Positions 48,098 to 64,000 of a DNA stretch of 64,000 nucleotides are shown here, piece after piece. Within the stretch, counting starts at the first letter, position 1. Each line of letters begins with the position of its first letter. Origin of the DNA: an uncultured Hyphomicrobiales bacterium (lineage in GTDB: Bacteria; Pseudomonadota; Alphaproteobacteria; Rhizobiales; Beijerinckiaceae); the NCBI GenBank assembly GCA_903902915.1, contig CAIUWR010000095.1:1-64000 (forward strand). Direction: 5' to 3'. A program made the position numbers and the translations under genes. The notes under the pieces are model-generated. The model ran no database searches, had not been told where the DNA came from, and saw nothing but the letters and a program-made list of their open reading frames with translations.

Positions 48098-49066
48098 ATG
48101 GATCGTCGCAGCTTTTCAGCGGCTCTTGCAGCCAGCCTCGCCTTGCCCGGCATGACGCGCGCACAAGGCGCCTGGCCGCATGGCCGCAACATGCGCCTCA
48201 TCGTGCCCTTCGCCGCAGGCGGCGCCACCGACATCATCGCGCGCATCGTGGCCGACAAGCTCGGCCGGATGTGGGAGTGCAGCATTATCGTCGATAACAA
48301 GGGCGGCGCAGGCGGCAACATCGGCACGGAAGCGGCGGCTCGCGCCGAACCAAATGGCGAGACCTTCCTGCTCGTCTCCGTGGGCCTCGCCACCAATCCC
48401 TATCTTTATCCAAAGCTTGGCTATGATCCGGTGGCTGATTTCGCGCCGGTGTCGCTGGTGGCGATGGTTCCCAACATGCTTGTCGCGGGCAACCATCTGC
48501 CAGCGAACAGCGTGGCGGAGCTGATCGCTTACGGCAAGGCCAACCCGGGCAAGCTCACCTATGCTTCCTCCGGGGTGGGCACGTCGATTCATCTTTCAGG
48601 CGAATTGTTCAAGAAGCTCACCGGCGTCGAGATGACCCATGTGCCCTATCGCGGCAGCGCGCCCGCCATTCAGGACATCATGGGCGGGCGCGTCGACATC
48701 ATGTTCGACAATATCACCTCCTCGCTCGCGCAAGCGCGCGGCGGGGCGCTGAAAGGCCTCGCGATCACCACCGCGAAACGCTCGCATTTCGCGCCCGAAC
48801 TGCCGCCCATCGCCGATACGGTTCCGGGCTATGACGTGTCGTCGTGGTTCGCGCTTTTCGCCCCCGCGAAGACGCCGCAGGACATGGTGACGCGCATGGC
48901 GAGGGACACGAAACTCGCCTTGAGCGACCCGCTGGTCAAGTCGCGTCTCGATGCGCTGGCCGCCGAATCCGTCGGCTCCACGCCAGCCGAACTCGCCGCT
49001 TTTCTCGCGAAGGAAAGCGACACCTGGGGCAGGCTGATCAAGGATCAGGGCATCAGGGCGGAGTAA
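48098..49066 (+). CDS. Bug-type solute-binding protein
   Basis: A 322-residue Bug/TctC binding protein. The N-terminus MDRRSFSAALAASLALPG has a Tat-like RR. The typical motifs are MRLIVPFAAGGATDIIAR, VDNKGGAGGNIGTEAAARA and YASSGVGTSIHLSGELFKKL. It is the most canonical of the seven in the window. It starts the plus-strand catabolic operon, 113 bp before the CoA-transferase. No TctAB partner is present. Confidence 0.93.
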   Translation: MDRRSFSAALAASLALPGMTRAQGAWPHGRNMRLIVPFAAGGATDIIARIVADKLGRMWECSIIVDNKGGAGGNIGTEAAARAEPNGETFLLVSVGLATNPYLYPKLGYDPVADFAPVSLVAMVPNMLVAGNHLPANSVAELIAYGKANPGKLTYASSGVGTSIHLSGELFKKLTGVEMTHVPYRGSAPAIQDIMGGRVDIMFDNITSSLAQARGGALKGLAITTAKRSHFAPELPPIADTVPGYDVSSWFALFAPAKTPQDMVTRMARDTKLALSDPLVKSRLDALAAESVGSTPAELAAFLAKESDTWGRLIKDQGIRAE

Positions 49067-49179
49067 CCGTCGTATTTTCATCTGGAATAGCGTGAGCTCG
49101 CAGCCTAATATGCCGCCGAAGTCCGAGCCATTCGGACAATAGGATGCTTTGGCCCCTTGAGGCCGCTGCGGGAGGAACA

Positions 49180-50322
49180 ATGTCGGGAGCCCTTGAAGGG
49201 ATTCGTGTCGTCGAATTCGCCAATTACGTCTCCGGCCCCTATGCTGGCATGTTGCTGGGCGACATGGGCGCTGACATCATCAAGGTCGAGGAGCCCACCA
49301 AAGGCGATCCGTTCCGTGGCTGGGGCCGCGTCGAATATTCGCCCACTTTCGGCTCGGTCAACCGCAACAAGAAGAGCGTGACGGTCGATCTCAAGAGCGA
49401 GCAGGGCAAGGCCGATGCGCGCGCGCTGATCCTTTCCGCCGATGTGGTGATCGAGAATTTCCGCGTCGGCGCGATGGAGCGGCTGGGGCTGGGTTATGAT
49501 CAGTTCCGCGAGGCCCATCCCGGGCTCGTCTGGTGCTCCATCACCGGCTATGGCTCTGATGGACCCTACGCCACGCGTCCGGGCTATGACACGGTGGGGC
49601 AGGCGGCGAGCGGCTTGCTGAGCCTGCTGACCGACATCTCAGACCCCAAGCCCATGGGCATTTCGCTGTCGGACCATCTGGGCGGCATGAACGCCGCCAA
49701 TGGCATACTCGGCGCCATCATCGCGCGCGGACGCACCGGCAGGGGCCAGCGGGTCGATACGTCCCTGCTGGAGGCCACGCTGTCCTTTTGCGGCGAGAAT
49801 GCGGCGCGTTTCTTCGAGAATGGCAAGACGCCCGGCCGCGCCACGCGCACCCATCAGGCGCAGGTCTACGCCTTCACCGCCGCCGACGAAAAGGCCTTCG
49901 TCGTTCACCTCTCCTCGCCGACGAAATTCTGGCTGGCCTTGACGGAGGTCGTCGGCCATCCCGAATGGGTGGAGGACGCGCGCTTCAAGACGAAAGAGAC
50001 GCGGGGAAAGAACTACGACGCCTTGAACAAAAGCCTCGCCGACATTTTCCGCACCAACACGCGCGCTCATTGGCTCGGGCTTTTGCTGGACAAGGATGTG
50101 CCTTCGGCGCCGCTGAATACGCTGGACGATGTTTTCGCCGATCCGCAGGTGCGGCATTTGCAGATGCGGGTCGACGTGCCCCATCCCAAGCTTGGGACCG
50201 TCGGCTATGTGCGCAATGGCGTGCGCATGTCCGACACGCCCAATTCCGTGCGGTTCTGCTCGCCGGAGCTGGGCGAACACAATGATGAGATTCTTTTGCC
50301 GTTGCGGCGCAAGACTGATTGA
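49180..50322 (+). CDS. CaiB/BaiF-type CoA-transferase
   Basis: A 380-residue class III CoA-transferase. It moves CoA between carboxylic acids (the family includes formyl-, carnitine- and succinyl-CoA transferases). The N-terminus LEGIRVVEFANYVSGPYAG is typical; Asp165 in LSDHLGGMNAANGILG is the probable catalytic aspartate. The GGAGGAAC site fixes the ATG at 49180. Between two Bug proteins it suggests activation of an imported organic acid. Confidence 0.94.
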   Translation: MSGALEGIRVVEFANYVSGPYAGMLLGDMGADIIKVEEPTKGDPFRGWGRVEYSPTFGSVNRNKKSVTVDLKSEQGKADARALILSADVVIENFRVGAMERLGLGYDQFREAHPGLVWCSITGYGSDGPYATRPGYDTVGQAASGLLSLLTDISDPKPMGISLSDHLGGMNAANGILGAIIARGRTGRGQRVDTSLLEATLSFCGENAARFFENGKTPGRATRTHQAQVYAFTAADEKAFVVHLSSPTKFWLALTEVVGHPEWVEDARFKTKETRGKNYDALNKSLADIFRTNTRAHWLGLLLDKDVPSAPLNTLDDVFADPQVRHLQMRVDVPHPKLGTVGYVRNGVRMSDTPNSVRFCSPELGEHNDEILLPLRRKTD

Positions 50323-50337
50323 GGGGAGGGCCTTTTG

Positions 50338-51354
50338 ATGAAACGCTTCATCCTTTCCGCATTGCTCTGCGCCTTGCCCTTCGCCGCGCAGGCGCAATCG
50401 GCTGCGGAGTTTTTCAAGAACCGCAAGATGACGCTGATCACCTCCGCGTCGCCCGGCGGCGGCTATGATCAATATGCGCGGCTGCTGGCGCGGCACTTGC
50501 CGAAATATATTCCCGGCTCCCCCACCATGATCGTGCAGAATATGCCGGGCGCCGAAGGCATCAAGGCCGCCAATTATCTTTACGCCTCGGCCCCGCGCGA
50601 CGGTAGCGTGATCGGCGGCTTGCAGCGCAATACCGGCCTTGTGAAATTCTATTATCCCGACAATGCGGGCGTGCAGTTCGACGCGCGCAAATTCATCTGG
50701 CTGGGTTCGACCCAGCAGGAGATCGGTTTCTTTCTTCTGCGCAACGCCACAGGCGTCAAAGGCCTGGAGGGATTGCGCGAAAAAGAAGTGACGATCTCCT
50801 CCACCGCGCGCACCTCGCCAAGCTCCATTTACGGGCGCATCCTGAACGAACTGGCGGGCACGAAGATTCGCGCCATCGAGGGCTATGAGGGGTCGCAAGC
50901 CGCCTTGATGGCGGTGGAGCGTGGCGAGGTCGATGGACATATTTCCGGCGGCACGTCGGCGGCTTTCCGCGCGCGCTATCGTCCATGGGAGAAGGCTGGC
51001 GAGGTTTCCGTGGTCATGCAGCTGGGCATGGAGCGTGACAAGGAATACCCCGACGTGCCGACCGCGCTGGAAATTGCGCCCAACCCCACCGCGCGCTCCA
51101 TTCTCGAAATCGCTTTTGTGGAACAGGTCATGGGGCGCCCCTTCGTATTGCCGCCCGACGTGCCGAAGGACCGCGCCGACCTCCTGCGCCACGCGTTTGA
51201 CGAGGCGATGAAGGATCCCGCCTTGCTGGAAGACGCCGCCAGGATGAGCGCTGAGATCGATCCGGTTTCCGGCGCGCGCATCAATGAACTGCTGGACAAG
51301 GTCTATACGGCGCCCGCCGACCTGACCCAGCGCGTTCGCGACCTTGTGCAATAG
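50338..51354 (+). CDS. Bug-type solute-binding protein
   Basis: A 338-residue binding protein with signal peptide to AAQAQ. Its motifs LITSASPGGGYDQYARLLAR and IVQNMPGAEGIKAANYLY are near those of the minus-strand protein at 56707-57741, so the two are close paralogues. It is 15 bp after the CoA-transferase and 8 bp before the thiolase-fold gene. GGGGAGGG is the ribosome site. Confidence 0.93.
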   Translation: MKRFILSALLCALPFAAQAQSAAEFFKNRKMTLITSASPGGGYDQYARLLARHLPKYIPGSPTMIVQNMPGAEGIKAANYLYASAPRDGSVIGGLQRNTGLVKFYYPDNAGVQFDARKFIWLGSTQQEIGFFLLRNATGVKGLEGLREKEVTISSTARTSPSSIYGRILNELAGTKIRAIEGYEGSQAALMAVERGEVDGHISGGTSAAFRARYRPWEKAGEVSVVMQLGMERDKEYPDVPTALEIAPNPTARSILEIAFVEQVMGRPFVLPPDVPKDRADLLRHAFDEAMKDPALLEDAARMSAEIDPVSGARINELLDKVYTAPADLTQRVRDLVQ

Positions 51355-51362
51355 GGGCAGAT

Positions 51363-52568
51363 ATGAACGCATTCACACAAAGCCCGCAGATCGAGCCCTC
51401 GCGCGAATTGCGCGACACCTGCGCGATCGTAGGCACCGCCACGAGCCGCCTTGGCAAAGTGCCGGGCACGTCGAGCCTCGATCTCATGGTCGAGGCGATT
51501 CGCAATGCGCTGGATGACGCCGGGCTGAAGGCCAGCGACGTCGATGGCGTGTTGTGTCGCGGGCCTGACGACTCTTATTCGCACCACCAGCTTGTGGCGG
51601 AGCGGCTCGGCGTCAACGCGCGTTTTTCCACCACCCTGACCAATGGCGGCGCGAGCCAGATCATGTCGGTGGCGCTGGCGGTGATGGCCATTCGTTTTGG
51701 CATGGCCAATACGGTCGTCTGCGGCTTCGCGCGCGATACATGGTCGCGCACCCACGCGAACGAAGAGGTGCGCGTGCGCAACGAGACGCGGCCTGAATCC
51801 ATGCTGGCGCGCGAATTCGGCCCCGAATATGGCTATTACGGCGCCACCGCCGCCCATGCCTTCGGCGCCACGCGCCACATGCATCTTTACGGCACCACGC
51901 GCGACCATTTCGGCGAAATCGCGGTGGCCTTTCGCGAACATGCCCTGCGCAACCCGCAAGCGCAGATGAAGAAGCCGCTGACGATGGCGGATTACCACGC
52001 GGGCCGTCTCATCGTCGCGCCTTTCGGCATCTATGATTGCAGCCTGCGCTCGGATGCGGCGGGGGCGGTCATCGTGACGAGCGCGGCGCGCGCGAAAGAT
52101 TTGCGCCAGCCGCCCGTGCTGATCAAGGGCTTCGGCACGCATAACAATACGCGCGGTTGGTTCGCCGACGACAATATGGTGGTCACCGCCGCCAAACAGG
52201 CGGGCGAGGCCGCCTATCGCATGGCGGGCCTTGGGCCGCAGGATGTGGACACCGCGCAGATCTACGATTGTTTCACCTATATGGTGCTCACCCAGTTGGA
52301 GGATTACGGCTTCTGCAAGAAGGGCGAGGGCGGACCCTTCGTGGCCTCGGGCGCGCTGCGCCTTGGCGGCGCCCTGCCTTGCAACACCTCTGGCGGACAG
52401 CTCTCGGAAAGCCATTGCGAGGGCATGTTGCAGATCGTGGAAGGCGTGCGCCAGATGCGCCACACTTATCCGGATCATCGCCAGGTGAAGGATGCGGAGA
52501 TCGCACTGATCTCCGGCCATGGCGGCAATCAGGTCTGCCATTCCACTCTGATTCTGGGACGCGCGTGA
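51363..52568 (+). CDS. Thiolase-fold (SCP-x/Ltp-like) protein
   Basis: A 401-residue member of the lipid-transfer/SCP-x thiolase-like group. The family segments are IYDCFTYMVLTQLEDYGFC, KKGEGGPFVASGALRLGG, PCNTSGGQLSESHCEGML and SGHGGNQVCHSTLILGR. Where thiolases carry the nucleophilic Cys, this reads TNGGASQ, so ordinary thiolysis is unlikely. In Ltp-type aldolases such proteins work with a DUF35 partner as retro-aldolases. The stop codon overlaps the DUF35 start. Confidence 0.9.
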   Translation: MNAFTQSPQIEPSRELRDTCAIVGTATSRLGKVPGTSSLDLMVEAIRNALDDAGLKASDVDGVLCRGPDDSYSHHQLVAERLGVNARFSTTLTNGGASQIMSVALAVMAIRFGMANTVVCGFARDTWSRTHANEEVRVRNETRPESMLAREFGPEYGYYGATAAHAFGATRHMHLYGTTRDHFGEIAVAFREHALRNPQAQMKKPLTMADYHAGRLIVAPFGIYDCSLRSDAAGAVIVTSAARAKDLRQPPVLIKGFGTHNNTRGWFADDNMVVTAAKQAGEAAYRMAGLGPQDVDTAQIYDCFTYMVLTQLEDYGFCKKGEGGPFVASGALRLGGALPCNTSGGQLSESHCEGMLQIVEGVRQMRHTYPDHRQVKDAEIALISGHGGNQVCHSTLILGRA

Positions 52569-52984
52569 TGACCGAGACCCCCGCAAAACCAAAGCCCCGC
52601 CCCGCGCCGGAATCCTTGCCCTATTGGCAGGCGGCCAAAGAGCATCGCCTCGCCCTGCCCAAATGCGAGGACTGCGCGCAATTCTGGTTCCCGCCCTCGC
52701 GCACCTGCCCCCATTGCCTGTCCACGAACTTTTCGTTCCAGACCGTGTCGGGGCGCGGCAAGGTGTTCAGCTTCGTCACTTTCCACCGCGTTTATCGGCC
52801 CGCTTTTGCGGGGGATGTGCCTTATGTGGTGGCGCTGGTGGAGCTGGAGGAAGGCCCGCGTGTGCTGACCAACATATTGGGAATGTCTCACGAGGACGTG
52901 TGTTGCGAGATGCCGGTTGAAGTGGTCTTCGACGATTATGACGAGGATATATCCGTGCCGAAATTCCGGCCGCTGGCGGGTTAG
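52568..52984 (+). CDS. DUF35 OB-fold, zinc-ribbon protein
   Basis: A 138-residue protein. A zinc ribbon, CEDCAQFWFPPSRTCPHC, at about 35-55 is followed by an OB fold (GRGKVFSFVTFHRVYRP, then VPYVVALVELEEGPRVLTN). DUF35 proteins bind acyl-CoA and pair with thiolase-fold enzymes. The start overlaps the thiolase stop codon as TGATG, showing a coupled pair. The last bases overlap the convergent PdxA-like gene by 4 bp. Confidence 0.93.
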   Translation: MTETPAKPKPRPAPESLPYWQAAKEHRLALPKCEDCAQFWFPPSRTCPHCLSTNFSFQTVSGRGKVFSFVTFHRVYRPAFAGDVPYVVALVELEEGPRVLTNILGMSHEDVCCEMPVEVVFDDYDEDISVPKFRPLAG

Positions 52985-53949
52985 CCCGCCAGCAAGCGCA
53001 CCGTGCGGATGACCGCTTCCGGGTCGGCGATGCCCTGACCCGCGATGTCGAAGGCGCTGCCGTGTCCCACGCTGGAAAACAGCGCGTCCGAACCAATGGA
53101 CAAGGCCGAGGCGTGGCGGCCCGCCACCAGCTTCACGGGGATATGGCCCTGATCGTGGAACATCGCGACATAGGCGTCGCAGTCGCGGCTTCCCAGCATC
53201 ACATCGGCGCCCACGGGGCCGACGACGTCGATGCCCTGCGCGCGCAGCCGCGCCGCTGCGGGCGCATTGACGCGCTCGTCGTCGTCGCCAAACAGCCCGC
53301 CTTCGCCCGCATGGGGATTGATGCCGAAGAGGCCGATGCGCGGATGATGGACGCCCAGCGTCGTCAACGCCTTGACGCAGGCATGGACGGCGGCCTCCAC
53401 AAGCTCCGGCGTGATGCGGGCGAGCGCATCGGCGAGGCGCTCATGCAGGGTGACGTGCAGAATGCGCAAGCCCCCGCCCACCAGCATCATGAAGACCTGA
53501 TCTTCGGGCATGTTGGTGAGGCGCGCCACGAGGCCGGGATAGCCGTTGAAGGGAATGCCCGCGCGGTTCACGGCGGTCTCGTTATGCGGACAGCCCACGA
53601 CCGCATGGGCCTTGCCCGCGCGCGCCAGATCAATCGCCTCCGCCGCATAGGCCACCATGGCCGCGCCCGCCACCGCCTCGATCTGGCCGGGCTTGAACTG
53701 ATCGGGCGTCATGGCGTCCACAGGCAGATATTCAATGCAGCCTGCTCCCGGCGCAGCCTCCTGCGTCTCGCGCAGCGCTATGTCGGGAAACAGCCGCTGC
53801 GCGTAATGGTCGATGATGAACCGGTCGCCGACAAGGATCACGCGCGGGCCGCTCTCCATGAGCGCCACCGCCGCCTTCACGGCGATCTCCGGGCCGATGC
53901 CATGTGGATCGCCGATGGTGACGGCTATCGGCAGTTGTGCTTGCGTCAT
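52981..53949 (-). CDS. PdxA-family dehydrogenase, catabolic context
   Basis: A 322-residue NAD-dependent metal dehydrogenase of the 4-hydroxythreonine-4-phosphate family. Metal histidines are visible in VGCPHNETAVN, HVTLHERLADAL and MFHDQGHIPVKL. The N-terminus is IAVTIGDPHGIGPEI. PdxA normally makes pyridoxal phosphate. Here it ends a catabolic operon, as PdxA2-like enzymes do that decarboxylate hydroxy-diol acids. It is 5 bp after the racemase-like B gene. Confidence 0.9.
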   Translation of the reverse strand: MTQAQLPIAVTIGDPHGIGPEIAVKAAVALMESGPRVILVGDRFIIDHYAQRLFPDIALRETQEAAPGAGCIEYLPVDAMTPDQFKPGQIEAVAGAAMVAYAAEAIDLARAGKAHAVVGCPHNETAVNRAGIPFNGYPGLVARLTNMPEDQVFMMLVGGGLRILHVTLHERLADALARITPELVEAAVHACVKALTTLGVHHPRIGLFGINPHAGEGGLFGDDDERVNAPAAARLRAQGIDVVGPVGADVMLGSRDCDAYVAMFHDQGHIPVKLVAGRHASALSIGSDALFSSVGHGSAFDIAGQGIADPEAVIRTVRLLAG

Positions 53950-53954
53950 GCGCG

Positions 53955-54686
53955 TCAATCCACCGGCATCTGCGCAAGCAACTGGCCATAGCCGGTCACG
54001 CGCTGGCGGATGCAGAGCCTGCGCTGGATCTCCCAGGCGCGGGCGGGGATCGGATGAATCACCGGCACGCCGCAATCCTGCTCCAGCTCCTCGATCATCT
54101 CCATCACGCGCCAGCCCGAGCCCAGCAGATAGATCGCCTCCGCCTTGGGTTGGCGCAGGAAAGCCCGTTTCACATGGGCGTAGACTTCATAGGGAGAGAG
54201 CTGGCCAACGTCCTGAAAGGGCACGTCCAGCCCCTCCATGCCCAGCACGTCAAAACCCGCCTCGACGAAATATTTGGCGAAGACGTCGTTGATAGGCCCG
54301 TTGAAATAAGTGGCGCCGACGAAGCTCTTCACGCCCAGCGCCCGCATGGCGCGCACATGGTTGCTGCCGGAGGTGAAGACCGGGATGTTGTATTTATCTT
54401 CCCAGCGCGCGATCACCTCGCATTCGCCCTTGTAGCCCAGCAGCATGAAGGGCGGGGCGCCTTCGGGATGCAGCAGATCGACCTTGGCTTCGGCGAGGCG
54501 TTGCAGCATGGGCTCATAGGGGTCCACGGCGCGCTTGAATTCGTCCACCGTTCCCTTGCGAATGTCGAGAAACAAAGGCAACAGGCAAACGCCATCGGGC
54601 AGAATTCGGATCAGCTCTTCAAGGCCGCCCGGGCGCAGGGTCGGCTTGATGCAGCCCACCACGCCGCGCCAGCTTGTATAGGCCAT
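53955..54686 (-). CDS. Asp/Glu racemase-superfamily protein B (Cys-less)
   Basis: A 243-residue protein similar to maleate cis-trans isomerase / arylmalonate decarboxylase. It is paralogous to the gene at 55774-56508. Superfamily enzymes carry a nucleophilic Cys at two places. By eye these are LLHPEGAPPF (near 73-80) and LLGSGWR (188-193 region), and both lack Cys. It lies between a Bug protein and the PdxA-like gene. GGAGAG precedes the ATG. Reaction unknown. Confidence 0.8.
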   Translation of the reverse strand: MAYTSWRGVVGCIKPTLRPGGLEELIRILPDGVCLLPLFLDIRKGTVDEFKRAVDPYEPMLQRLAEAKVDLLHPEGAPPFMLLGYKGECEVIARWEDKYNIPVFTSGSNHVRAMRALGVKSFVGATYFNGPINDVFAKYFVEAGFDVLGMEGLDVPFQDVGQLSPYEVYAHVKRAFLRQPKAEAIYLLGSGWRVMEMIEELEQDCGVPVIHPIPARAWEIQRRLCIRQRVTGYGQLLAQMPVD

Positions 54687-54706
54687 TTCATCTCTCCATT
54701 CGGGAT

Positions 54707-55759
54707 CTATTCGGCGCCTTTGCGCACGATGTCGACATAGCGGCGAACCACGTCAGGCGGGGTCTTGCTCATCTTCTCGATGATGGCGCGCACGGCGGCG
54801 CCGTCGATGGGGCTCAGCTCGAAATTGGCGCGCGCTGCGTCTTCGAGAAAGTCCTTGTCGCGCGTCATGTCCATGAAAGCCTTTTGCAGCGCCGCCACGC
54901 GGTCGGCGGGCACATTCTGCGGGGCTAGAAAGGGCAGGGCGATGAAGAAGGACAGCTCGGCGAATTCCATCAACGCGAGATCGCCGGGGTCGGACAGCAG
55001 CTCGCGGCCCGTGGGAATGTCGGAAAGTTCGGGAAGGCGGTTCATGCGCCCCACCTGCAGCAGCGGCCGCACCTGTTTGCCGTTCCACAAGGCGGGCTGC
55101 CCGCCGCGCACTGAGCCAAGGCCGATCATCTGCCCATCCAGCTCGCCGCCCTGCATGGCGATGAACATGGGGGCGGCGCCCGGATAGCCGCGCACCAGTT
55201 TGACGTTCAGCTTCAGCACATCGCGCGCGAGGATCGCGAAGGTGAGGTTGGTGGAGCCGGGCATGTCGCCGCCCAGGCGCACGATCATTTCAGGCTTGCG
55301 CAGATCGGCGACGGTCTTTGCTGGATGGCTGTCGTTGACCACCATCAGATAAGCGTCGTTGGCGTAGGACGAGAGCGAGCCGATCCAGTTGAATTTCAGC
55401 GGATCGAAGCGCACGTTGGGATTGCCTTCATAGGCGAGTTGCGGCGTGCCGCGCTCCATGATGGCGATGGTCGTTCCATCCTGCTCGCGGCTGTTCACCA
55501 ACTGGTTCGCGAGCAACATGCCCCCCGCGCCGGGCATGTTGCGCACCACGACCATGGGCTGGCCTGGAATGAAGCGCCCCAGATGGCGCGCCACCAGCCG
55601 CGCGTTGAGGTCGAAATTGCCGCCCGGAGATGTCGGCACGACAATGCTGACCGTTTTGCCGGCGTAGAATTGCTCCGGCGTCTGCGCGGCGCAGGAGGCG
55701 ATGGAGGCGCCCGCAAGCGCGAGGGCGCCCAGCAGGCGCGCGAAACAGGATGACAGCAC
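54707..55759 (-). CDS. Bug-type solute-binding protein
   Basis: A 350-residue Bug protein with signal peptide to SCAAQ. Motifs: VSIVVPTSPGGNFDLNARLV and VVVRNMPGAGGMLLANQLVN. The start is taken as GTG at 55759 because GGAAGGAAAG is at the right distance; an ATG at 55774 that overlaps the upstream stop codon (TGATG) is equally possible and only adds 5 residues. It is flanked by the two racemase-like genes. Confidence 0.9.
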   Translation of the reverse strand: MLSSCFARLLGALALAGASIASCAAQTPEQFYAGKTVSIVVPTSPGGNFDLNARLVARHLGRFIPGQPMVVVRNMPGAGGMLLANQLVNSREQDGTTIAIMERGTPQLAYEGNPNVRFDPLKFNWIGSLSSYANDAYLMVVNDSHPAKTVADLRKPEMIVRLGGDMPGSTNLTFAILARDVLKLNVKLVRGYPGAAPMFIAMQGGELDGQMIGLGSVRGGQPALWNGKQVRPLLQVGRMNRLPELSDIPTGRELLSDPGDLALMEFAELSFFIALPFLAPQNVPADRVAALQKAFMDMTRDKDFLEDAARANFELSPIDGAAVRAIIEKMSKTPPDVVRRYVDIVRKGAE

Positions 55760-55773
55760 GGGCTTTCCTTCCA

Positions 55774-56508
55774 TCAGGGCAGGGGCGGCAGCGTCGCGAG
55801 CAATTGGCCATAGCCCTGTCGCGGTTCATTCACGTGCAGACGTTTCTGGAATTCCCAGACGCGGGCGGGCACGGGATGAATCACCGGCACGCCCAGATCG
55901 CGCTCCAAAAGGTCGATGATGTGCAGCGTGCGCCAGCCCGAGCCCAGCATGTAAATCGCGTCGGCGCCGCCGCTCTTCAGGAAATGATGTTTGATGAAGG
56001 CGTAGACCTGTTCGCCTGACAGTTCCTGCGCCTTGTTGAAGGGCGTCTCGATGCCCTCCATGCAGCGCACCTCGAAGCCAGCGTCGGTGAAATACTGCGC
56101 GAATGTGTTGTTGATCTCGCCGGGGAAGTAACTCACGCCCACGATGCTCTTCACCTTCAGCGCCCGCAGCGCGGTGATGTGGTTCTGGCCCGCGGTAAAG
56201 ATCGGCGTGTTATATTTCTTCTCCCACGCGGCGACGATTTCCGCCTCGCCTTGCAGGCCATGCACCATGAAGGGCGGGGCGCCATTGGGGTGGATGGCGT
56301 CGCAGCCCTGTTCGGCCAACAGGGCGATCTGCGTTTCATAGGCGCCCATGACTGTGGCGAATTCGGCGCGCGTGCCTTGGCGGATATTGGTGAACAGCGG
56401 TAGGACGCCGATGCCTTCTGGCAAGAGGCGAATGAACTCCTCCAACGCGCCGGGGCGCAAGGTTGGGTGGATGATGCCCGCGATGCCGCGCCAGGCTGAA
56501 AAGGCCAT
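55774..56508 (-). CDS. Asp/Glu racemase-superfamily protein A (Cys-less)
   Basis: A 244-residue paralogue of the gene at 53955-54686, similar over its whole length (for example the shared HPxGAPPF and LGSGWR segments). The expected catalytic Cys positions read AIHPNGAPPF (71-80) and MLGSGWR (187-193), with no Cys. Other cysteines (Cys69, Cys149) are nearby but not at the classical places. It is transcribed between two Bug proteins, overlapping or touching the next gene. Confidence 0.8.
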   Translation of the reverse strand: MAFSAWRGIAGIIHPTLRPGALEEFIRLLPEGIGVLPLFTNIRQGTRAEFATVMGAYETQIALLAEQGCDAIHPNGAPPFMVHGLQGEAEIVAAWEKKYNTPIFTAGQNHITALRALKVKSIVGVSYFPGEINNTFAQYFTDAGFEVRCMEGIETPFNKAQELSGEQVYAFIKHHFLKSGGADAIYMLGSGWRTLHIIDLLERDLGVPVIHPVPARVWEFQKRLHVNEPRQGYGQLLATLPPLP

Positions 56509-56706
56509 GTCAGTTGTCCTGTGGTGAATGGTGCGAGGGTTCGGCGCATGGAGGCGAGGCCTCTGAATCTGGCTTGCGAACTTGGGCTGTAAAACCCGGC
56601 GTCTGTTGATCCATGCCCGGACCGACCTCCCTTGATATGGCGTGTGCAGCGCACCTTTCCTTGAAGATGACGCCTGCGCGCGCGTTTGACAAGCAGCGCT
56701 CCAGAC

Positions 56707-57741
56707 TCAGTTGGCTTTCGCCTTCGCCAGATCGCGCAGTTTCTGAATTTGCGCTTGCGGCGAGTCATAGGCTTTCCGCAGCAAGGCCTGAATGGCGACC
56801 GCGTCCAGAAGGTAGATGGGCGCATTTTCATTTGCGGCTTCGGCCAGAAACGCAGGATCGCGCGCCGTCTCGATGAAGGCTTTTTCGAGAATCTCCACCT
56901 GCGCCGCCGGCGCTTTGGGGCCCAGCACATAGGGCGCGCCGATCTCCTGTTCGGTGAAGGCCAGTTCAAAGACGCCGCGTCCTTCGGGATCGCTGATCAG
57001 ATCAAGCGCCGTTGGCGCGTCGGGATAATCCATGTCGCGTTTCATGCCGAATTGCAGCAGCACCTTTGCGCTTCCCGCTTTGGTCCAGCTTGCGATCTTG
57101 TTTTTAAGGGGCGCCGTCGTGCCGCCCGCAAGATGGCCATCCACCTCGAAGCGTTCGACCGCCAGCATGCCCGCCGTCGAGCCGTCATAACCTTCGACAG
57201 GCTTCAGCTTCGAACCATAGAGCGCGTTGAGCATGCGCGCATACATGGAATTGGGGGAATTGGCGGCCTGCGAACTCAATGTGACCTCGCGCGACTTCAG
57301 ATCCTCCGCGCTTTGCAGGCCTGATTTCGTGTTGACCACCATGATGCCCGTATCGCGCTTCAGCGAGCCCAGCCAGTGGAAGTTGAAGGGGTCGAACAGC
57401 ATCGCCTGTTCATGATGCGCGTAAAGCTTCGACAGGCTCAAGGAACGCGACAAGGCGCCGATATAGGTTCCATCCTGGGGCGCCAGATTATAGATGTAAT
57501 TGGCGGCCTTGACGCCTTCCGCGCCGGGCATGTTCTGCACGACGACCGATGGCGCGCCTGGAATATGTTTGCCAAGATGACGCGCCAGCAAGCGCGCATA
57601 TTGGTCATAACCACCGCCTGCCGACGAAGCGCTGACGATGAAAATCGTCTTGCCGCGGAAATAGTCTTGCGCTGCGGCCCCATGCGCGCCGAGCAGCGTG
57701 GCCCCTAAAGCCAGCGCGCTGATCCAGCCCGGCAATCTCAT
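56707..57741 (-). CDS. Bug-type solute-binding protein
   Basis: A 344-residue Bug protein. A signal peptide ends in GAAAQ, followed by IFIVSASSAGGGYDQYARLL and VVVQNMPGAEGVKAANYIYN, close to the protein at 50338-51354. GGGGAGACGAC precedes the ATG. It is 66 bp after the cupin gene and 198 bp before the racemase-like A gene; nothing else is visible in that gap. Confidence 0.93.
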   Translation of the reverse strand: MRLPGWISALALGATLLGAHGAAAQDYFRGKTIFIVSASSAGGGYDQYARLLARHLGKHIPGAPSVVVQNMPGAEGVKAANYIYNLAPQDGTYIGALSRSLSLSKLYAHHEQAMLFDPFNFHWLGSLKRDTGIMVVNTKSGLQSAEDLKSREVTLSSQAANSPNSMYARMLNALYGSKLKPVEGYDGSTAGMLAVERFEVDGHLAGGTTAPLKNKIASWTKAGSAKVLLQFGMKRDMDYPDAPTALDLISDPEGRGVFELAFTEQEIGAPYVLGPKAPAAQVEILEKAFIETARDPAFLAEAANENAPIYLLDAVAIQALLRKAYDSPQAQIQKLRDLAKAKAN

Positions 57742-57807
57742 GTCGTCTCCCCGTATCTTTCGATGATCTTTTGCTGGAGCGGTTGGTTGTGTCCGCCCAT
57801 TCCTGCG

Positions 57808-59010
57808 TCAGTCCGTCGGCGGATCATAGAGCGTCTGCTCCATGCGCACGGGCACGCCCTGCGCCTTCATATAGTCCTCGAATTCCTTGCGCAGGAACGG
57901 GTCTTCCGCATGGTAGGGGATGGCGACGCCGCCCTTCTTGATGTCGATGGCCCATTTGTCTGTCATGGCCTCGCCGGGCAGGCCCGGTTTGCGCGCAGGA
58001 TGATTGTTGGGGCCGAACCATGCGGTGACGCGCAACGGGTCTTTCGACACGCCGAAATGCTGATGGTTCCAGTCGCCCGTCATGGGCGCCGCCGAGATCA
58101 TGCCGCCAGCCTCGTAGTCCTGCCGGAGCACCTTGTCGCCATGGCCGTCCTGCCAAGGCGTCGAGCCATAGATCGCGGGCCAGGTATAGGTATAGCCCTT
58201 GCCTTTGACGCAGATGAGCACGGCGCAGCTCTCATGCGCATGGGCCTTGGAGTAGCGGCCGGTCTCGTGCTGGCCGATCCACAAATGGAAGCGTTGGCCC
58301 GCCATCTCCGGCTCGATGCGCCGATAGCCTGGCGATCTACGGTTATCCAGCGGCATGTCGCAATTGATGATGTCGGGCATGAAATTGGTGCGGCGCATGG
58401 CCAGCCCGCGCACCGGGTCGGGCTCAAGATCGTCGCGGTTCTTGAAATAGTCGTCTTCGCCCGAATATCGGTCGGTGAAATTAAAGGGGCAATCGAAGAC
58501 GAAACGCGGGTTGTCGAAGAGGTTCATGATATTGGGCGCCGAGGTGCCGCAGATCATGATGGCGGGCGAATTGGTGGCGTTGACGAAGCGGTGATAGGCG
58601 TTCAGCGGTATCGAGAACAGCGAACCCTTCTGCCATTCGAAGGTCTGCTTCTTCGTCTGCCCGTCCTGCCAAACTTCCGTCGAGCCGCGCCCTTCGGCGA
58701 TATAGCACTGCTTCTCGTAAAGGTGATGCTCGATGTTCAGCGCGCCGCCCGGCGGGATCTCGACCACATAACAGCCCCACAGGCCCTCCGTGCCGTAGAG
58801 CTGGATATAGGAGCCCTTGCCGCCAAGCCGCTTCCATGGCGCCATGGGCAGATCTTGCGCGCGCTTGAGGCCGATGCCGCGAAAGCAGGGAATTCCCTCC
58901 GCCTCGATGAAGCGGTCATAGGGCATGGCGGGGCGCTTGAACTTGCCGAAGCCCGCATTTTCGCCCGCTTTGGGTTCGTGCCAATGTCTGGCGATTTCAT
59001 CGTGCGGCAT
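57808..59010 (-). CDS. Bicupin, gentisate-dioxygenase-like protein
   Basis: A 400-residue two-domain cupin. Cupin 1 (about 80-150) has the metal-type EHHLYEKQCYIAEGRGSTEV and PLNAYHRFVN. Cupin 2 (about 235-320) has KAHAHESCAVLICVKGKGYT and NHQHFGVSKD. Gentisate and salicylate dioxygenases have this layout, but the size and termini are unusual, so substrate is uncertain. GAGGGGGGAAC marks the start. It heads the minus-strand operon. A paralogue ends at the right edge of the window. Confidence 0.85.
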   Translation of the reverse strand: MPHDEIARHWHEPKAGENAGFGKFKRPAMPYDRFIEAEGIPCFRGIGLKRAQDLPMAPWKRLGGKGSYIQLYGTEGLWGCYVVEIPPGGALNIEHHLYEKQCYIAEGRGSTEVWQDGQTKKQTFEWQKGSLFSIPLNAYHRFVNATNSPAIMICGTSAPNIMNLFDNPRFVFDCPFNFTDRYSGEDDYFKNRDDLEPDPVRGLAMRRTNFMPDIINCDMPLDNRRSPGYRRIEPEMAGQRFHLWIGQHETGRYSKAHAHESCAVLICVKGKGYTYTWPAIYGSTPWQDGHGDKVLRQDYEAGGMISAAPMTGDWNHQHFGVSKDPLRVTAWFGPNNHPARKPGLPGEAMTDKWAIDIKKGGVAIPYHAEDPFLRKEFEDYMKAQGVPVRMEQTLYDPPTD

Positions 59011-59170: not shown

Positions 59171-60160
59171 ATGCGCAAGATCATCCTGACGGCCATTCTG
59201 GGCGCCTCTCTGGCGACCGGCGCATCGGCCGTGGCGCAGACGCGCAGGCTGGAGGTCATCGTCTTCGCCGGCGCCAGCGCGCTGCCGATTTATATTGCGC
59301 AGGAGAAGGGTTTCTTCGCCAAGGAGGGCTTGAGCGTCAATGTCACCGCCACGCCCAGCTCCGGCTTCCAGATGACCAGCCTCATCAACGGAAAATTCGA
59401 CATAGCAGGCACGGCGGCCGACAATCTTGTCGCCTATCAGGAGGGGCAGGGGACCGCGGCGGTCGAGGGGCCGGTGGATCTGGTGATTGTGTCGGGCGGC
59501 TCGTCGACAGAGCTTGCGCTCATGGCGCAGCCTTCCATCAAGTCCATTGGCGCGTTGAAGGGCACGCAGTTTGCGCTGGATTCGCTCTCGACCGGCTATG
59601 CCTTCGTGCTGCGCAAGATGCTTGAGAAGAACGGCTTGCAGCCGACGGATTACGAATTCGTCGCCGTTGGCGGCACACGTGAGCGCCTTGAGTCGCTGAA
59701 AGATGGCAAAATGTCCGCCGCGCTCGTCAGCGAGCCCTTCACCACACAGGCCAAAAACGCAGGCTACACTTTTCTGGGTGAAGCGGTCTCGTCAGTTGGT
59801 CCTTATCTGGCCAGCGTCCAGATCGCCAATCGCGCCTGGGCGAAGCAAAATGAGGCCGCCATGGTGGGATATATCAGAGCGCTCGTGAACGCCGTCGACT
59901 GGCTCTATGACGCGGGAAATACGGATGAAGCCGTTCGGATCCTGGCGGCGAAGACGAACACGTCCGACGCTGTGGCTCGGCCGTCGACGCTGGGCGCCAC
60001 AAGGGGTCAGGCGGCTTTGGCGCCCAGGGGCGCGCTCGATGTGGCGGGCCTGAGCACGGTGCTTGCCGTGCGCGAGCAATTCGCCGAGCCGAAGAAGAAA
60101 ATGGGCCCGCCTGAAAAATACTATGACCTGAGCTACTACAACAAGGCGATCGCTAAGTAG
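59171..60160 (+). CDS. ABC solute-binding protein, NitT/TauT type
   Basis: A 329-residue periplasmic protein. A signal peptide ends at SAVAQ; the mature part is LEVIVFAGASALPIYIAQEK, FFAKEGLSVNVTATPS and INGKFDIAGTAADN, the NMT1/SsuA pattern. No permease or ATPase gene follows, so it is an orphan or uses the components at 23-25 kb or elsewhere. Divergent from the cupin, with a 160-bp shared control region. Confidence 0.9.
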   Translation: MRKIILTAILGASLATGASAVAQTRRLEVIVFAGASALPIYIAQEKGFFAKEGLSVNVTATPSSGFQMTSLINGKFDIAGTAADNLVAYQEGQGTAAVEGPVDLVIVSGGSSTELALMAQPSIKSIGALKGTQFALDSLSTGYAFVLRKMLEKNGLQPTDYEFVAVGGTRERLESLKDGKMSAALVSEPFTTQAKNAGYTFLGEAVSSVGPYLASVQIANRAWAKQNEAAMVGYIRALVNAVDWLYDAGNTDEAVRILAAKTNTSDAVARPSTLGATRGQAALAPRGALDVAGLSTVLAVREQFAEPKKKMGPPEKYYDLSYYNKAIAK

Positions 60161-60260
60161 GCGGTTCTGGCGGGGCTTGCCGTTGGCGGCGAAGTTCGAC
60201 AAGGTGACGAACGCACCGCGGAGACGGGGCGTCAGGGATGAACGCGACTGCGAGGGAAAG

Positions 60261-61247
60261 ATGGCTCTGGTTTCCAAATTTGTAGCGCTGTTGGGCGCCG
60301 CTGTTCTGGGCCTTATGGCGAACGTGGCGCAGGGGCAGGCGCAGGCGCAGACAGCTTGGCCGACGCGAGCTGTGAAGTTCATCGTTCCCTTCGCGCCGGG
60401 TGCTGGCGCCGACATTGGCGCGCGCCTCGCGGCGGATATGTTGTCGCGCAAATGGGGCCAGCCGGTGATTGTCGAGAATCGACCGGGCGGCGACAGCCTC
60501 ATCGCGATCCGCGCGGTGGTCGGCGACAACAATGATCACCAGTTTCTGTTTACGCCGACGGGAAATTTCACGCCGCATCCCTACCGCCACGAGAAGCTCG
60601 GCTATGTGCGCGAGCGCGACCTGCTGCCCGTGGCGCGTTTCTCCAACACCATTCTGGTGGTGGGCGCCTCCGAAATGCTCGGCGTGAAGACGCTGGGCGA
60701 GTTCGTGGACCTCGCGAAGAAGAAGCCGGGCGAAGTGAATGTCATGGTGGTGCCGGGAATCACTGAACTGGTGTGGGATTATTTCACCACCACGCTCAAT
60801 CTTCAGATCACCAAGGTGCCCTTCACCAATCTCACGGCGGGCGCAGCCGAAATGGTGACCAACCGCATTCAGGGCGCCATGACGGCGCTGGCCATTCAGC
60901 AGCCGGTGCTGCAAGGCAAGGGCGCGCGCGTGCTGGCCGTGACGAGCCGCAACCGCACCGAGATCCTGAAGGACGTGCCCACCGTGATCGAAGCGGGCGT
61001 GCCCTCGCTTGAGCTGGATGGTCTGGTCGGCGTTTTCGCAGCCCCCAGCCTCAGCCCCGAACTGCGCAAGCGCATCGGCGACGACATCGCCGCCGTGGCC
61101 CGCGACCCCGACATCGCCGCCAAGCTCGTGACCAGCGGACAGGTGCCGAATCCCGGCGGCGCAGAAGAATTCTCCGCCGACATCCTGCGCCAGGAACAGC
61201 AGGTGGACGCCATGGCGAAGGTGGTGGGGTTGAAGCGGATGGAGTGA
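60261..61247 (+). CDS. Bug-type solute-binding protein
   Basis: A 328-residue Bug protein. Signal peptide to QAQAQ, then VKFIVPFAPGAGADIGARLA and IVENRPGGDSLIAIRAV, and the family's VTSRNRTEILKDVPTVIEAG. The ATG at 60261 is preceded by GAGGGAAAG. It is 100 bp after the NitT-type protein, probably in one unit. No TctAB genes. Confidence 0.92.
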   Translation: MALVSKFVALLGAAVLGLMANVAQGQAQAQTAWPTRAVKFIVPFAPGAGADIGARLAADMLSRKWGQPVIVENRPGGDSLIAIRAVVGDNNDHQFLFTPTGNFTPHPYRHEKLGYVRERDLLPVARFSNTILVVGASEMLGVKTLGEFVDLAKKKPGEVNVMVVPGITELVWDYFTTTLNLQITKVPFTNLTAGAAEMVTNRIQGAMTALAIQQPVLQGKGARVLAVTSRNRTEILKDVPTVIEAGVPSLELDGLVGVFAAPSLSPELRKRIGDDIAAVARDPDIAAKLVTSGQVPNPGGAEEFSADILRQEQQVDAMAKVVGLKRME

Positions 61248-63798: not shown

Positions 63799-64000
63799 TC
63801 AGAACACATCCCCCATGCCTTTGCCGTCCTCGACCGGGCCTTCGTAAAGTTCCGGCTCCATGCGCGTCTTCGCGCCTTCCTTGGCCAGGGTCTGCTCGAA
63901 TTCATTGCGCAGATAGGGGTCTTCTTCGTGATAGGGGATGGCGCTGCCGCCCTTTTTCAGGTCGATGGCGCCATAGTCCATCAGCGCCTCGCCTGGCACG
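63799..64000 (-). CDS. C-terminal end of a second bicupin (cut by window edge)
   Basis: The minus-strand frame ends with TGA at 63799 and is open past the right window edge. The visible 67 residues (GGSAIPYHEEDPYLRNEFE and flanks) match the last part of the bicupin at 57808-59010 (GGVAIPYHAEDPFLRKEFE). It is therefore a paralogue; only its C-terminal end is visible, the start and metal sites lie outside. Confidence 0.85.
   Translation of the reverse strand, partial: VPGEALMDYGAIDLKKGGSAIPYHEEDPYLRNEFEQTLAKEGAKTRMEPELYEGPVEDGKGMGDVF

Follow-up and report, generated by a model that had tools for sequence, protein, structure and literature searches.

Do eleven neighbouring genes with catabolic annotations encode one pathway, or do several modules meet at one place? 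The question was raised by a window, i.e., the whole analyzed stretch, of 64,000 nucleotides on contig C95 of the genome of an uncultured lake bacterium of the Hyphomicrobiales (G000, the window's own genome: 3.68 Mb, 102 contigs). At positions 48098-59010 it contains an island of two convergent operons. The plus-strand operon encodes a CoA-transferase and a thiolase-fold protein with a DUF35 partner, the minus-strand operon a PdxA-family dehydrogenase, a pair of proteins with the fold of arylmalonate decarboxylase (AMDase) and a bicupin, and receptors of the Bug type are found in both. A sequence-only reading had proposed that all eleven genes could form one route. With modest confidence we favour a different explanation, namely that the island is pieced together from catabolic modules that travel independently and does not represent one pathway, and that its PdxA serves in trans a Rieske oxygenase pathway encoded on another contig, C24.

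The eleven genes were confirmed at these positions and strands, together with the convergent layout and the protein families of the sequence-only reading, and ten of the eleven proteins reached the Pfam gathering score, the exception being Bug4. The features of the island are:

48098-49066, plus strand: Bug1, TctC-family receptor (PF03401, E 2.9e-66)
49180-50322, plus strand: family III CoA-transferase (PF02515, E 1.9e-114)
50338-51354, plus strand: Bug2, divergent TctC-like receptor (PF03401, 28 bits, cut-off 27)
51363-52568, plus strand: SCP2-thiolase-fold protein, probably a Sal/Ltp2-like retro-aldolase (PDB 4u4e, E 1e-75; 6ok1 (Ltp2), E 7e-60)
52568-52984, plus strand: DUF35/ChsH2-OB protein, rubredoxin-like zinc ribbon plus OB fold (PF01796, PF12172)
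52981-53949, minus strand: PdxA-family, TphB-like dihydrodiol dehydrogenase (PF04166, E 3.8e-71)
53955-54686, minus strand: AmdA1, AMDase/maleate-isomerase fold (PF17645, E 2e-19)
54707-55774, minus strand: Bug3, TctC-like receptor, repeated neighbour of AmdA (PF03401, 34.8 bits)
55774-56508, minus strand: AmdA2, paralog of AmdA1, 55% identical (Pfam match over cut-off)
56707-57741, minus strand: Bug4, divergent TctC/TAXI-like receptor (TctC 22.7 bits, cut-off 27 not reached)
57808-59010, minus strand: bicupin, first gene of the minus operon (Cupin_2, 35.7 bits)

The plus operon is thus read from Bug1 to DUF35 and the minus operon from the bicupin via Bug4, AmdA2, Bug3 and AmdA1 to PdxA. The operons lie tail to tail, and their terminal genes, DUF35 and PdxA, overlap by 4 bp (52981-52984). 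Within the minus operon AmdA2 and Bug3 overlap by 1 base, 20 bases separate Bug3 from AmdA1 and 5 bases AmdA1 from PdxA, and 198 bases lie between Bug4 and AmdA2. The combination of solute receptors and enzymes supports the designation as a catabolic island. Close relatives repeat the neighbourhood with proteins that are 76-97% identical, and, thus, the island is more than a chance assembly. Among the matches listed, the closest relatives with a name are metagenome bins deposited under Beijerinckiaceae or Rhizobiales, and their sample codes presumably denote lakes and ponds. No description of the eleven-gene set was found in the titles and abstract openings of the open-access papers listed.

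Distribution of the two operons and of PdxA

The genes were followed through 51 genomes of the genus. The thiolase-fold protein, below called the aldolase, was found in 37 of them (E<=1e-80). The arrangement CoA-transferase, Bug2, aldolase and DUF35 was present elsewhere, whole or for the most part, in G613, G739, G418, G452, G724, G774, G546, G690 and G680, and in G478 and G596 the CoA-transferase and Bug2 were called beside the aldolase match. Bug2 was located between the CoA-transferase and the aldolase in 12 of the 15 operon copies read. These four genes are a separate, portable operon. Across the genus, the presence of the aldolase was unrelated to that of PdxA (21 genomes with both, 7 with PdxA only, 16 with the aldolase only, 7 with neither; Fisher p 0.76).

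Only the closest relatives showed the two operons as neighbours. The sequence-only reading had named a lack of co-occurrence in other genomes as evidence against a single route, and this is largely what the search for the same arrangement revealed. Of the six genomes with a PdxA at least 80% identical to that of the window (G000, G675, G778, G620, G757 and G660), five also have the aldolase (a partial match in G660, where the island is broken across contigs). The six-gene order of the minus operon is kept in G000, G620, G757 and G778. In G675 the bicupin lies directly before PdxA, no AMDase-fold genes are between them, and the genome has no aldolase match. The flanks are conserved as well, i.e., a flavodoxin-like gene in G620 and G757, and GreA, ADH and MFS genes in G757, and therefore the adjacency of the operons is partly ordinary synteny. 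The loci L047, L048, L049 and L050 were treated as the same contigs as the stretches of G778, G620, G660 and G757, and not as extra genomes.

The PdxA-type dehydrogenase of the sequence-only reading held up, with its match to PF04166 and TphB as the nearest solved protein (4aty, E 9.7e-99, full length). TphB is the terephthalate cis-dihydrodiol dehydrogenase of the tph operon; it belongs to the same PdxA family, and the CPHxETA stretch common to TphB is present as CPHNETA in the window protein. At E<=1e-70 it is the sole match in G000. In the genus PdxA was found in 28 of the 51 genomes at this threshold, with one match per genome. In eleven of these (G613, G739, G680, G705, G546, G584, G690, G605, G640, G571 and G534) a PdxA 58-63% identical lies directly behind the Rieske alpha and beta genes, as tphB lies behind tphA2A3 in the available text of PMC8556258, and genes for a gentisate-dioxygenase-like cupin and an FAA hydrolase are nearby on the opposite strand. 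This also supports the aromatic-acid setting that had been proposed for PdxA. The best NCBIfam models for the Rieske subunits of G613 were AndAc and AndAd, below cut-off, and the best solved match of its cupin was a putative gentisate dioxygenase (2d40, E 3e-47). The window PdxA differs from TphB in its surroundings: Rieske alpha and beta genes were not found beside it in the window, and its operon partners are the bicupin, receptors and AMDase-fold proteins.

In seven further genomes (G519, G769, G596, G753, G626, G695 and G675) the PdxA slot is empty, and the Rieske beta gene lies directly before an amidohydrolase gene, the same gene that follows PdxA in G613, G739, G680, G705 and G546. Six of the seven have PdxA elsewhere in the genome, the exception being G519. 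In the window's own genome, genes for a Rieske alpha protein (75-76% identity), a Rieske beta protein (61%) and the cupin (72%) occupy about 26.7-30.8 kb of contig C24, and the 20 kb read there gave no match to PdxA, the FAA hydrolase or the amidohydrolase. Because these genes are on C24 and the only such PdxA is in the window, the window PdxA probably serves the C24 Rieske pathway in trans. It would represent a pathway gene that is kept as a single copy although it lies outside the operon in which it is usually located. A distant PdxA (54-56%, without CPHxET) adjoins the cupin, or is one Bug gene away from it, in G645, G500, G650 and G749.

The Rieske alpha protein was found in 25 of the 51 genomes at 70% identity or more (32 of the 51 over the E-value threshold), and only these 25 were used in the Rieske counts. 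The cupin was found in 29 of the 51. PdxA and the cupin occurred together in 27 genomes, with 1 and 2 exceptions and 21 genomes with neither (Fisher p 5e-11), and the numbers for PdxA and the Rieske protein were 24 with both, 4 and 1 with one only, and 22 with neither (p 2e-9). On the SMC tree, which comprised the 47 of the 51 genomes with a match (two with less than half of the columns; G753 without a row), presence changed 3 times for PdxA, 3 times for the cupin, 6 times for the Rieske protein and 8 times for the aldolase, and there were two to three independent pairs. With only about three changes on the tree, the Fisher values are inflated and are no independent evidence. The correlation was thus rejected as proof that the three proteins cooperate, since it is a matter of clades; the case is based on how the operons are built and on the one PdxA copy that was kept.

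The PdxA tree was calculated for 27 of the 28 PdxA genomes (G700 was left out). The 6 window-type, the 6 unlinked and the 11 Rieske-linked proteins formed three groups in one supported set of 23, and the SMC tree showed the same genome groups. A relocated ortholog is a simpler account than a foreign gene that took its place. Both trees are unrooted and do not fix the order of the groups, so that both directions fit, PdxA leaving the Rieske operon or entering it in the sister clade; most simply, it left.

Alternative explanations for the island

Several observations weigh against the mosaic and against a PdxA that acts in trans. The two operons do stay together in some relatives. G620 keeps them adjacent, separated by an FAA hydrolase gene and a Bug gene, and G778 keeps them with Bug, molybdenum hydroxylase and NMT1 genes between, although no CoA-transferase was read there. 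G757 probably keeps both, on two contigs, and these contigs carry PdxA pieces that differ in their identity to the window protein (80 and 86%), so that the bin may be composite. A distance of about 8 kb separates the aldolase operon from the Rieske-PdxA cluster in the sister genomes G613 and G739. Regarding PdxA, the C24 stretch of the window's own genome is without the FAA hydrolase or amidohydrolase match, G519 (98% complete; L282) keeps Rieske and cupin genes without a PdxA at E<=1e-70, G757 (83% complete) has PdxA without Rieske protein or cupin, and a Rieske match of at least 70% is missing from G778, G700 and G749, which do have PdxA and the cupin. The four distant PdxA proteins are on a long branch and do not have the CPHxET motif, and the order of the three groups is not resolved by the PdxA tree, so insertion into the Rieske operon of the sister clade competes with departure from it. 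The genes for PdxA, the Rieske protein and the cupin are clade markers, and two to three independent pairs prove nothing. In addition, PdxA could now serve the local bicupin alone.

In the single undescribed (hetero)aromatic-acid route of the sequence-only reading, the bicupin would open the ring, the AmdA proteins would isomerise or decarboxylate, PdxA would dehydrogenate, and the CoA-transferase and the aldolase would cleave a C-C bond. The overlapping tail-to-tail neighbours fit this proposal, as do the joint presence of the operons in G000 and the three relatives just described, the FAA hydrolase or molybdenum hydroxylase genes that relatives hold between them, and the short distance in G613 and G739. 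However, the aldolase operon is away from window-type PdxA in eleven genomes, PdxA and aldolase presence are unrelated, the bicupin and PdxA of G675 occur without an aldolase match, the likely Rieske and cupin partners of PdxA are on C24, and the conserved flanks of G620 and G757 indicate that adjacency may be plain synteny. The genus profiles and the separate aldolase operons led us to reject the single pathway as the leading view, and we regard it as improbable. Somewhat less improbable, but still unlikely, is that the minus operon alone is a complete local pathway, in which PdxA, the bicupin and the AmdA proteins would act together, without other partners for PdxA, on an acid whose breakdown requires no Rieske oxygenase. 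The bicupin accompanies PdxA in all six genomes with the window-type protein (on split contigs in G660), both are on the same strand of one stretch in G000, G620, G757, G778 and G675, and an FAA hydrolase gene adjoins PdxA in G620, G757 and G660. The absence of AMDase-fold genes from this place in G675 speaks against it, and so does the fact that the genome has no other PdxA copy, while C24 still carries relatives of the Rieske and cupin genes that usually accompany PdxA. The least credible explanation, which we consider very improbable, is a loose assortment of genes for scavenging in a receptor-rich genome, with no shared flux and with adjacency by drift. The 69 TctC-family matches in the genome, a bicupin family in 50 of the 51 genomes with up to six copies, and the frequent insertions between modules would agree with it, but the spacing is tight in much of the minus operon and its six-gene order is kept in four genomes.

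The mosaic with a PdxA acting in trans thus remains the favoured explanation. It reduces the claim of an unknown pathway to testable pieces, and it is a caution that adjacency in receptor-rich genomes should not be read as one pathway. A more specific version can be put forward only tentatively: one poorly known lake lineage of the Beijerinckiaceae may have a so far undescribed aromatic-acid pathway that is split over two loci. One contig would carry the Rieske oxygenase and the gentisate-dioxygenase-like cupin, and another a TphB-type dehydrogenase that is not linked to them and was recruited into an operon with a new ring-cleaving bicupin family and a new class of Cys-independent AMDase-fold isomerases or decarboxylases. 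If the enzymes are real, this would show how lake bacteria break down dissolved aromatic acids.

Predicted functions of the enzymes

In the favoured explanation, PdxA would oxidise the cis-dihydrodiol formed by the AndAcAd-like Rieske oxygenase of C24, probably with loss of CO2, and the resulting dihydroxy-aromatic acid would be cleaved by the gentisate-dioxygenase-like cupin of the same contig.

The bicupin of the island had been described as a ring-cleaving cupin. None of the NCBIfam models matched its sequence at E<=0.01, and none of the gentisate or salicylate dioxygenases of the PDB did so at E<=0.1; the best PDB sequence match was an oxalate decarboxylase (E 0.022). A structure model (pLDDT 82, built from only 10 sequences) had salicylate and gentisate 1,2-dioxygenases as top VIA-align matches (Z 19.7-20.7; salicylate 1,2-dioxygenase with Z 20.7, root-mean-square deviation (rmsd) 3.9 and 267 residues aligned), and oxalate decarboxylase followed with Z 19.6. 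In the plain Foldseek ranking a Mn-cupin, oxalate decarboxylases and seed storage proteins came first. Gentisate and salicylate 1,2-dioxygenases have a three-His iron site in the N-terminal cupin. The window bicupin would share the bicupin fold with these enzymes, as judged from the model, but it does not share their sequence family, and its conserved HxH...H is in the second cupin domain. In the 10 sequences H96, E99 and H316 were invariant, and H257 and H259 were conserved in at least 90%. The name gentisate dioxygenase was not adopted, as oxalate decarboxylase scored hardly lower and Foldseek ranked other cupins first. Thus, the fold is in agreement with ring cleavage, and it fits other functions too. 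The bicupin of the subclade is probably a second ring-cleaving or another non-haem metal dioxygenase, which may act on the same or a related intermediate.

This bicupin family is present in nearly every genome of one genus (50 of the 51 at E<=1e-80, up to six copies), with orthologs of at least 81% identity in 13 genomes. When 397 genomes of the order were searched at E<=1e-20, 7 had the bicupin, the own genome included. A homolog of LigI, the 2-pyrone-4,6-dicarboxylate hydrolase, is encoded directly upstream of bicupin orthologs (85-86%) in G478, G753 and G695, i.e., in three of the seven stretches outside the window's subclade (G478: 4d8l, E 9e-69). It was not found in the window nor in the other four of the seven stretches, two of which are shorter than 7 kb. 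With this neighbour, the bicupin may act on an intermediate of aromatic ring cleavage. The right end of the window cuts through a second bicupin that is 76% identical (63829-63999; C95:63832-65028, L025), and contig C40 carries two further bicupins (61% and 35-37%) with a EutA-family gene between them. Tandem pairs of divergent bicupins, 27-31% identical to that of the window, were seen in L047, L180, L192 and L041, and Bug genes flank the pairs in L047 and L180.

The two AmdA proteins had been described as racemase-like. The AlphaFold2 model of AmdA1 (pLDDT 90) matched best to maleate isomerases (VIA-align Z 29.6, rmsd 2.0, 234 residues) and to AMDase (Z 29.0, rmsd 2.0, 232 residues), and the likeness in fold to AMDase and maleate cis-trans isomerase spanned Z 27-30 over 224-236 residues. 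Maleate isomerase has two catalytic Cys residues. No conserved Cys that could represent this pair was found in the alignment of 33 AmdA sequences; Cys occurred in at most 12 of the 33 rows of any column. H73, E88, W192 and R216 were invariant. In contrast to AMDase, the window protein has Gly189 in place of the catalytic Cys188 (AMDase position 188), and with 56.7 and 62.3 bits versus 225 the AmdA proteins missed the cut-off of the NCBIfam equivalog for AMDase. The Cys chemistry of the AMDase and maleate isomerase families is therefore not shared. A true racemase function was set aside because no Cys is conserved. This is an enzyme family with the AMDase fold and without its catalytic cysteine.

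In the family, 41 of 397 genomes had AmdA1 relatives, and 38 of these belong to the window's genus. Of 397 genomes searched in the order at E<=1e-20, only 1, the own genome, had AmdA1; environmental genomes outside the genus also contain AmdA relatives. Scanning the GTDB species genomes with the AmdA pair yielded 123 matches, the best 80 of which correspond to 77 distinct loci. As 17 of the 77 loci are shorter than 10 kb, the neighbour counts are lower bounds. A Bug3-like receptor was encoded within 1 kb on the same strand in at least 19 of the 77 loci. Within 10 kb, the bicupin was found in at least 7, PdxA in at least 4 and the aldolase in at least 2; a Rieske alpha gene was found near AmdA in none of the 77 loci among the matches listed. 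Four of the at least 7 bicupin loci are outside the window's subclade (L078, L079, L083 and L109; 28-56% identity), a weak sign that the AmdA and bicupin families belong together. The scattered neighbourhoods make AmdA, with or without a receptor, a portable module. AmdA2, Bug3 and AmdA1 would thus be such a module, consisting of cofactor-free isomerases or decarboxylases without Cys chemistry and their own receptor.

UbiD decarboxylase genes were located within 10 kb of AmdA in at least 16 of the 77 loci, and within 1.5 kb on the same strand in at least 7. In L086, L100, L107, L108 and L109 (Deltaproteobacteria-type or Binatia bins) the UbiD gene is at most 0.3 kb upstream of the AMDase-fold gene, and in L080 and L097 it is also within 1.5 kb, which suggests that UbiD and AmdA are a functional pair.

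The last examples are the enzymes of the plus operon. The CoA-transferase had succinate--glutarate CoA-transferase as best NCBIfam model (272.5 bits, cut-off 750), and it would convert a carboxylic acid to its CoA ester. The thiolase-fold protein has a YDCF motif at residue 301, and its Gly96 aligns with the nucleophile Cys of the thiolases 7yvy and 6esq. According to the accessible part of PMC12329534, Tyr and Cys of the YDCY motif are the catalytic pair of the aldolase Sal, the motif that the window's YDCF resembles, and Gly replaces the thiolase nucleophile. The window protein shares with Sal and Ltp2 the SCP2-thiolase fold, the Gly at this position and an adjoining DUF35 gene, the product of which has the zinc-ribbon pattern Cys-x2-Cys-x10-Cys-x2-Cys and is the presumed partner of the aldolase. 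The window operon differs from them in that no MaoC hydratase was found among the 19 window proteins scanned, its place being taken by a Bug receptor and the family III CoA-transferase, and Tyr344 of Ltp2 corresponds to a His in the alignment. The matches to 4u4e and Ltp2, the YDCF motif, Gly96 and the DUF35 ribbon make a retro-aldolase pair more likely than a thiolase, and thiolase function was set aside on account of the motif and of the Gly in place of the nucleophilic Cys. By analogy, the complex of aldolase and DUF35 would split a beta-hydroxyacyl-CoA by retro-aldol cleavage.

Solute receptors and neighbouring genes

The conserved block reaches past position 59010. Two genes that are divergent from the bicupin (59171-61247) are kept in G620, G757 and G660:

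59171-60160, plus strand: NMT1/SsuA-type binding protein (PF13379/PF09084), 85-89% identical and at the same place in the three genomes
60177-61247, plus strand: Bug5, TctC-family receptor behind NMT1 with a provisional start codon (PF03401, 91.9 bits), 82-88% identical in the three genomes

The receptors resemble those of tripartite tricarboxylate transporters, as Bug1, Bug2, Bug3 and Bug5 are TctC-type proteins over the cut-off and Bug4 is below it. The membrane subunits TctA and TctB were not found among the 19 window proteins, and the permeases that the receptors of the Bug and NMT1 types supply are probably encoded at other places. Adjacency to genes of such transporters is described as frequent for AMDase genes in the available text of PMC4996985. 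The genome G000 (3.7 Mb) contains, together with its 69 TctC-family matches, 8 UbiD-family matches.

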